This document shows, piece after piece, positions 55,702-56,716 of a stretch of 64,000 nucleotides of DNA (positions within the stretch are counted from its first letter, which is position 1; the number at the start of each line of letters is the position of its first letter). Under the pieces are notes generated by a model that was not told the DNA's origin, ran no database searches, and saw nothing but the letters and a program-made list of their open reading frames with translations. Source of the stretch: Actinobacteria bacterium IMCC19121 (GTDB taxonomy: Bacteria > Actinomycetota > Actinomycetes > Nanopelagicales > Nanopelagicaceae). The DNA lies in the NCBI GenBank assembly GCA_002284895.1, contig CP015605.1:1302001-1366000 (forward strand). The letters are read 5' to 3'. The translations under genes were made by a program, and so were the position numbers.

Positions 55702-56598
55702 TTACGCCTCAATAATCCAAGCACCACTGACTGCAACTTTGACCTTACCCAGCGGGGTTTGGGCTGGACCAGTAACAACCTTTGCAGATTTATTGGGATC
55801 AAATTCTGCTCCATGACATGGGCACTTCAATGTCTTGCTGGAAGATGAGTAAGAAACCGTGCAGCCCTGGTGTGTACAAATTGCTGAGTAAGCAAAGACG
55901 CCTGTCTTGGTTCTAAAAAGAATAGCTGGAGCGCCGTTGCTGGCAACAAAGTTATGGTTGCCTCCAACCTTAAGTGATGCCAGTTTTATAATCTTGGCAC
56001 CCTTGCCCGCTGCTGAATTAGTTGTTGTAGGTGCAGCTTTAGCAAAGAATTTACCTGCTCCAGCAAATGCAACAGCAAGTGCACCAGTGATTCCAACTCG
56101 TAACACACTACGACGTTCTAATGACATGTTAAAGCCCTTTCGTTTGCCATTTGAATTTAAGAGTAATAAATAAGATAACCATAAAACTGCATATGCCGTA
56201 TCACTTGCCAGAAAGTATGGGGAGACATGAAAACTACTGGCTAACCACAAACCTAGCGACATGGAAAAACCACCAAAAGCTGCCAAACGAGGTGCCACCC
56301 AGAAAAGTGTGGCTAGACCGATTGCAAACTCAGAGATCATTACAAACCCACCTACTAAGGTGGCATGTTCAATTAATTTGTTAAAGGCAAATCCCATGGG
56401 CGATTGAGTTGAATACCCCGACAACTGTGTTCCAATGTATGTAGAAGAGCCTGGAGTGAGAAAACCTGAATCTGTGGCTTTATCCCAACCAGCATAAATC
56501 CAAGTAATTCCAAGCCAGAGGCGCATGATTCGAAAAGCTGGTGCTTGGTTGCGCCAAGAAGACGTGGCCGTGCGCACATAGCTTTGAATCATGCTCAT
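55702..56598 (-). CDS. DoxX/DoxD-like membrane domain fused to a Tat signal and Rieske [2Fe-2S] domain
   Basis: A protein of about 298 aa. The N-terminal half is a four-helix DoxX/DoxD-type membrane domain (IMRLWLGITWIYAGWDKATD; FVMISEFAIGLATLFWVAPR). In the middle, SLERRSVLRVGITGALAVAF looks like an internal Tat-type signal anchor. The C-terminal half is a Rieske domain with CTHQGC and CPCHGAEFD, so all four cluster ligands are present. It probably moves electrons at the outer face of the membrane; the partner is unknown. I prefer the ATG at 56598, 7 nt after TACTAT. Confidence 0.85.
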   Translation of the reverse strand: MSMIQSYVRTATSSWRNQAPAFRIMRLWLGITWIYAGWDKATDSGFLTPGSSTYIGTQLSGYSTQSPMGFAFNKLIEHATLVGGFVMISEFAIGLATLFWVAPRLAAFGGFSMSLGLWLASSFHVSPYFLASDTAYAVLWLSYLLLLNSNGKRKGFNMSLERRSVLRVGITGALAVAFAGAGKFFAKAAPTTTNSAAGKGAKIIKLASLKVGGNHNFVASNGAPAILFRTKTGVFAYSAICTHQGCTVSYSSSSKTLKCPCHGAEFDPNKSAKVVTGPAQTPLGKVKVAVSGAWIIEA

Positions 56599-56605
56599 GA
56601 GATGC

Positions 56606-56611
56606 ATAGTA
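56606..56611 (-). promoter_or_regulatory. -10 hexamer of leaderless DoxX-Rieske promoter
   Basis: TACTAT on the minus strand ends 7 nt before the ATG at 56598. It overlaps the alternative upstream ATG at 56607, which makes that start unlikely. Confidence 0.5.
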
Positions 56612-56644
56612 AAGGTTGAGCCTGAGAAAAGGCCGAGTGAAAAG

Positions 56645-56716
56645 CTCCCTGACTTGGATTCGAACCAAGAACCTGTCGATTAACAGTCGACTGCTCTGCC
56701 GTTGAGCTATCAGGGA
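56645..56716 (-). tRNA. tRNA-Asn (GTT)
   Basis: A 72-nt cloverleaf. The acceptor TCCCTGA pairs with TCAGGGA, the anticodon stem GTCGA/TCGAC holds the loop CTGTTAA with anticodon GTT, and the T arm contains GGTTCGAATCC. Discriminator G; CCA not encoded. The gatCAB genes in the window could amidate Asp on this tRNA if no AsnRS is present. Confidence 0.96.

Follow-up and report, generated by a model that had tools for sequence, protein, structure and literature searches.

A gene joining a DoxD membrane part to a Rieske domain

We analysed a stretch of 64,000 nucleotides from Actinobacteria bacterium IMCC19121 (CP015605.1, positions 1,302,001-1,366,000; hereafter the window, meaning the whole stretch) and focused on one minus-strand gene whose 301-residue product joins a DoxD-type membrane part, an internal twin arginine (RR) in a signal for twin-arginine translocation (Tat), and a Rieske iron-sulfur domain (Table 1). 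Its frame runs from an ATG at 56607 (MHLMSM...) to a stop at 55702-55704; a preliminary description of this DNA had the same frame as 55702-56598 and left the strand unstated, 56598 being the second in-frame ATG (residue 4), and both ATGs are candidate upstream starts. Pfam recognised DoxD (PF04173) at residues 27-126 (48.8 bits against a cut-off of 22.7) and Rieske at residues 212-286 (49.2 bits against 20.3), while the Pfam DoxX model stayed under its cut-off (20.9 bits against 23.6) and PHROGs gave no match. AlphaFold2 predicted the whole protein with a mean local distance difference score (pLDDT) of 89.9, placing helices at residues 23-44, 82-101, 106-124 and 135-153, then a fifth at 165-188, followed by the Rieske beta fold; the DoxD half modelled alone reached 93.8. 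The RR lies in SLERRSVLRVG (residues 162-172), inside the protein, and the three parts named in the preliminary description (four-helix DoxX/DoxD domain, internal twin-arginine segment, Rieske domain with intact CTHxxC and CPCHG motifs) were all recovered here.

Table 1. Features of the fusion gene and the adjoining tRNA gene, in window coordinates
Feature	Position	Strand	Basis
DoxD-Tat-Rieske fusion gene, 301 amino acids	55702..56607	minus	frame, Pfam, full-length single-frame relatives
DoxD half, residues 23-153, four membrane helices (Pfam DoxD 27-126)	56149..56541	minus	Pfam, structure models
AAAGG, Shine-Dalgarno-like site, 8 nt before internal ATG	56136..56140	minus	
Internal in-frame ATG, residue 161, putative start of MSLERRSVLRVG	56125..56127	minus	
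Twin arginine, residues 165-166	56110..56115	minus	RR in 107/107 aligned fusions, with a one-residue shift in one
Fifth helix, residues 165-188, predicted Tat signal anchor	56044..56115	minus	structure model
Rieske domain, residues 212-286	55750..55974	minus	Pfam, fold comparison
CTHQGC cluster motif, residues 244-249	55861..55878	minus	frame, alignment
CPCHG cluster motif, residues 262-266	55810..55824	minus	frame, alignment
tRNA-Asn(GTT), directly upstream, syntenic landmark	56644..56716	minus	

Counting residue conservation over 107 aligned fusions, we found the first arginine of the RR in all 107 and the second in 106, the exception (L223) being a one-residue alignment shift, and the four cluster ligands and both disulfide cysteines were invariant (107/107). 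Conservation extended into the DoxD part, with P130 in 107/107 and K43, E93 and R29 each in 106/107. Helix 5 is followed by a lysine or arginine in 102/107 fusions and, in the window protein, by an AKA motif that is a candidate signal cleavage site. In four fusions of family f55 (L035, L056, L097, L102), the DoxD part and the twin arginine are separated by an additional segment that has four conserved cysteines.

This is the layout of dual Sec/Tat proteins, with four transmembrane domains (TMDs) before the RR and one directly after it (by structure model, not TMHMM) and a cofactor domain at the C-terminus; positive charges after the last TMD are described for release from Sec in the part of Tooke et al. 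2017 that treats such proteins (PMC5449189). The preliminary description had read the joint as a Tat substrate fused to a Sec-inserted membrane protein, so that two export systems would handle one polypeptide. The fusion is a true one and the host genome has a TatC gene, and from these and the layout we infer, rather than observe, export by both systems.

Distribution of the fusion

To place the gene among its relatives, we scored fusion-level matches (E 1e-70 or better, a few of them contig-edge pieces) in the host's family, revealing them in 162/296 genomes and 12/17 genera, and in 79 of the 112 genomes at least 90% complete. Full-length single-frame relatives were found down to about 46% identity. 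Named relatives include Planktophila and Nanopelagicales and, with the size and gene content of the genome, suggest a place among freshwater acI Actinomycetota. A Streptomyces-type family had the fusion in 50/150 genomes, including 38/38 of genus g275, and in its genus g19 the matches cover DoxD alone, among the matches listed. A Rieske-pattern scan returned the fusion in 78 of the best 80 named loci (Actinomycetota of several classes, Chloroflexota and Candidatus Aeolococcus), a count that is not a frequency because the scan was queried with fusions and kept the best. Domain trees built for a single origin of the fusion had short alignments and mixed placements.

We also looked among relatives for the two halves as separate genes. 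Of 28 genomes with middling matches, 5 are contig-edge or unread-base cases; in the others only the Tat-Rieske half is present, its motif being the usual one in 9 and altered in 14. Internal stops as a sign of split genes were considered and dropped: the stop in L022 precedes the start, and G004 and G014 (L126, L112) are each one frame, the stop-flagged relatives G022 and G274 standing outside this check. Separate genes in close relatives together with a joining error, the outcome that the preliminary description named as fatal to its view, were not found; in the single apparent split gene (G092) the switch of frames falls on an unread base, which makes it the reverse case, a fusion split in the data. 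Given the same joint in more than 150 genomes and nothing in the window that favours it, two genes joined by sequencing or assembly error is an explanation to which we give practically no credence, the relatives having already refuted it. The fusion is real, widespread and old. A Rieske protein with five TMDs is already on the list of Tooke et al. 2017, so the kind is known, and it is the partner domain of the fusion that is, in the literature consulted, undescribed.

A putative internal start at the joint

The gene in the window's clade seems to contain a putative internal start that would give the iron-sulfur part alone, a feature that the preliminary description missed. An in-frame ATG at residue 161 follows the Shine-Dalgarno-like AAAGG, and a product begun there would start MSLERRSVLR, which is the Tat signal. 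Synonymous changes were counted on a gene tree of 29 related genes, over 143 columns with a conserved residue, where they averaged 4.5 per column for two-fold and 8.5 for six-fold codons; only R156, K157, F159 and F238 had none. The site and its spacer account for three of these, the conserved codons within residues 156-159; residue 158 is nearly always Gly or Val, either codon of which retains the following G. The AAAGG site had been named before the codons were counted, but the clade was already in view by then.

Pairing with the 16S rRNA tail, whose sequence was assumed (a point that counts against the result), had a median of -8.7 kcal/mol at the internal ATG, with 29/29 genes at -6.3 or better, compared with -2.7 kcal/mol for 324 internal ATGs of window frames and -0.7 kcal/mol at the upstream start, where it was strong in 0/19 readable genes. 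In a fresh set of 20 further relatives (19 readable), the 3/3 with the methionine have the site, and the 16/16 that lack the methionine also lack the site. Locus L029 lost ATG and site together, and L111, outside the clade, has the ATG with a moderate site (-6.9), so that such internal starts perhaps have more than one origin. We also considered the internal start as a leftover from separate genes and rejected this, as relatives outside the clade have neither methionine nor site.

What the joint displays is nucleotide constraint, which could also be expected if it served something other than a start, such as mRNA structure or an antisense frame. Against such a role, site, spacing and ATG occur together, they disappeared together in L029, and the 16 relatives without the methionine have no site; we regard it as rather unlikely. 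A plus-strand antisense frame of 88 amino acids (55907-56173) does overlie the fusion joint.

Repeated loss of the DoxD half

We placed these genes on a DnaG tree of 75 loci, in which fusions occur throughout and the internal-start genes group together (support 0.953) with one loss, that of L029. Genes lacking the DoxD half fall in four places in this tree (six, two, one and eleven genes), the group of eleven being sister to the internal-start clade (0.972). Three losses is the safer count because the exact placement of L064 is weakly supported, and the DoxD half was lost at the same locus at least three times, a series also missed in the preliminary description. Together, the internal start in the window's clade and the series of DoxD losses are well supported at the level of sequence, and they are the surprising part of this analysis.

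Several DoxD-less genes lie close against the upstream tRNA gene: in L065, L066, L074, L076 and L079 the Rieske ATG comes directly after the end of tRNA-Asn, and in L085-L087 it abuts or overlaps the tRNA 3' end. As a separate observation, the acceptor stem of tRNA-Asn (GGGAG) could act as a ribosome-binding site in L065 (1908-1980), L076 (1414-1486) and L085-L087. Among the Rieske-only genes of genus g1 relatives (L074-L087), both disulfide cysteines are replaced together in 14/14, by Gly and by Val or Ile, giving the motifs CxHxGG and CxVH/CxIH, and the four cluster ligands are kept in 14/14. The AioB of NT-26 is a natural Rieske protein without the disulfide bridge, according to the portion of that study concerned (PMC3758308).

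We put at about even chances the following history and its outcome. One gene would yield two redox proteins with different targeting. From the upstream start would come the Sec/Tat DoxD-Rieske protein with five helices; a ribosome-binding site that emerged within the fused frame, exactly at the Tat signal, would give the Rieske protein by itself, anchored through Tat. The internal start may then have allowed deletion of the DoxD half in sister lineages, after which the Rieske ATG stood where the tRNA gene ends, and later the loss of the cluster disulfide, so that the fusion would be seen at several stages of being dismantled.

Fold comparison and residues of possible functional weight

Comparing the predicted fold with solved structures, we found the Rieske half closest to AioB and PetC3 (AioB 1g8j: Z 14.8, root-mean-square deviation (rmsd) 2.1, 101 residues). 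For the DoxD half the best match was NACHO/TMEM35A (9h9e, Z 12.3, rmsd 3.3 over 125 residues). It stood well clear of the rows below it, the first of which was vitamin K carboxylase (Z 8.5, rmsd 4.0 over 118 residues), a hydroquinone-using enzyme; these rows come from a VIA ranking, in which the absence of a family proves nothing. NACHO/TMEM35A we take to be a DoxX relative, and its match, the Pfam result and the model all describe the half as a four-helix bundle of DoxX type. Foldseek with the DoxD half gave no row at E 0.001 or better, searches of solved structures with its sequence (E up to 10) and profile (E up to 1) gave nothing relevant, a literature search on MauE/DoxX structure yielded nothing useful, and one on DoxX with NACHO no paper. 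The likeness to vitamin K carboxylase is a lead toward possible quinol binding, no more.

If the N-terminus is inside, the conserved K43, Q61, S69-P70, P130-Y131 and D136 would, by our reading of the helix directions, sit at outer helix ends, and E93 is modelled within helix 2. In the Rieske half, position 267 of the fusions is Ala in 63/107 and Ser in 28/107, and position 269 is Phe in 83/107 and Tyr in 24/107, the window protein having Ala267 and Phe269. We take these positions to be those of Ser and Tyr in bc1 Rieske proteins, and with Ala and Phe in their place the redox potential is predicted to lie below bc1 values. As a caution on this prediction, an F-to-Y change in AioB had no effect, in the portion of the study concerned (PMC3758308).

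Proposed function

We consider it reasonably probable that the protein is an accessory, membrane-held Rieske electron carrier exported through Sec and Tat, with a second, free Rieske product in the window's clade. Sec would insert the four DoxD helices, the twin arginine before helix 5 would pass the folded [2Fe-2S] domain to Tat, and the cluster would come to lie outside, tethered to DoxD, with the conserved DoxD polar residues facing the presumed docking side of the Rieske domain. The protein's most probable task would be one-electron transfer at the outer face, from a quinol-type donor held at DoxD to a c-type cytochrome or a cupredoxin. A free Rieske protein anchored through Tat would be a further product of the gene in the window's clade, made from the internal ribosome-binding site and ATG. 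The breadth and invariance of the fusion, the predicted fold and the codon constraint at the internal start speak for this proposal, and so do the charges after helix 5, partner-like genes that neighbour fusions elsewhere and the pairs of separate DoxX-type and Tat-Rieske genes in other lineages.

Several observations weigh against this proposal. DoxD lacks an invariant pair of histidines that could bind haem (H127 is present in 55/107), which leaves the quinol role without direct support, and a Z of 8.5 for a helical bundle could reflect merely a common arrangement. Dual Sec/Tat proteins have a weakly hydrophobic last TMD, and the expectation that helix 5 would be the least hydrophobic of the five failed, helix 1 scoring worse. 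The window has no functional partner gene beside the fusion (galactose genes, the tRNA gene and dnaG stand there), and the fusion looks dispensable because 134/296 family genomes, many of them incomplete, have no fusion-level match, five genera (60 genomes) having none at that level. The use of the internal start, for its part, is argued from sequence constraint and not from RNA or protein.

A different reading, in which DoxD serves only as a membrane anchor and redox work is left wholly to the Rieske half, with no site needed in DoxD, would account for the loss of the DoxD half at least three times with the Tat-Rieske part retained, and for the best start in the window's clade being the internal one. 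The polar residues conserved in DoxD over 107 fusions exceed an anchor's needs, however, and separate DoxX-type and Rieske genes remain neighbours in 10/16 regions of other lineages; we hold the anchor reading to be possible, on the doubtful side. The series of repeated losses offers comparisons for DoxD's contribution.

Relation to known systems

Dual Sec/Tat Rieske proteins are known as bc-complex subunits and from one listed five-TMD case, KSE_30950 of Kitasatospora setae, in the part of Tooke et al. 2017 concerned with them (PMC5449189). That protein probably shares the architecture described here, since genus g275, which we take to be Kitasatospora, has the DoxD-Rieske fusion in 38/38 genomes; the same part of the paper leaves the first four TMDs unnamed as DoxX/DoxD and the protein untested (PMC5449189). 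In the open literature, as far as the sources consulted go and with domain databases outside the scope, we found neither the DoxX-Rieske fusion architecture nor a Nanopelagicales Rieske protein, and the DoxD identity and breadth of the five-TMD kind appear to be new. The fusions would form a second dual Sec/Tat Rieske family, which reaches into hundreds of lake- and soil-bacterial genomes and into Streptomyces kin, some culturable. They connect DoxX/DoxD, a poorly understood domain, with a Rieske cluster in a way that can be tested and, through the putative internal start, provide a natural case of one cofactor domain that would be exported both with and without a Sec-inserted partner.

Actinobacterial QcrA (Sco2149 type) resembles the fusion in its Sec-inserted helices, RR, last helix and Rieske domain, and among NCBIfam models the one for actinobacterial QcrA (NF050121) scores best, at 60.2 bits. 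This score is far below the cut-off of 275, and the domain layout differs, QcrA having three TMDs and being part of a bc complex, whereas the fusion has five helices and DoxD. The genome's own QcrA lies at a locus apart from the fusion, beside cytochrome b and a dihaem cytochrome, and the fusion has no cytochrome b gene beside it; that the fusion is a QcrA-type Rieske subunit of the bc complex is very improbable. AioB, the arsenite oxidase small subunit, is the closest in solved Rieske fold and in sequence but lacks the DoxD half, and the fusion scores 54.1 bits on its model (NCBIfam TIGR02694, cut-off 95.65).

Pfam DoxD is named for thiosulfate:quinone oxidoreductase (TQO), to which the preliminary description hinted a link, and the DoxD score would allow the fusion to be a subunit of a DoxDA-type TQO. 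DoxA (PF07680) is absent from the host genome, which is complete (1.5 Mb, 99.95% complete), and NCBIfam TQO_large_DoxD gives 16.1 bits against a cut-off of 300; we judge this identity highly improbable. The DoxDA enzyme of Acidianus has the DoxD domain in common with the fusion; it has DoxA as partner, whereas the fusion has a Rieske domain instead.

Gene neighbourhoods

The fusion gene lies 36 bases downstream of tRNA-Asn, on the same strand, between dnaG and a galactose gene group. The 10 of 16 regions of other lineages mentioned above have a head-to-head arrangement of separate DoxX-type and Tat-lipoprotein Rieske genes. Family f21 and similar ones have the same two parts side by side, differing from the fusion in that these are separate divergent genes with another DoxX subfamily. 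We clustered the neighbours at 61 loci outside the host's taxonomic order with a codon-position filter against shadow frames, the loci not being independent of one another. A DUF2231 gene adjoins the fusion at three loci that are of Ktedonobacteria type or from Chloroflexota, two fusions have a DUF4405-like membrane gene next to them (both below the Pfam cut-off, with a third, L185, similar by BLAST without a Pfam match), and a cupredoxin gene stands beside one (L139). Across phyla, an OmpR-type regulator occurs near the fusion in 18/61 loci and a kinase in 14/61, the OmpR-type loci including L128, L134, L165, L171, L196, L200 and L203, with regulator and kinase confirmed by Pfam in L134 only.
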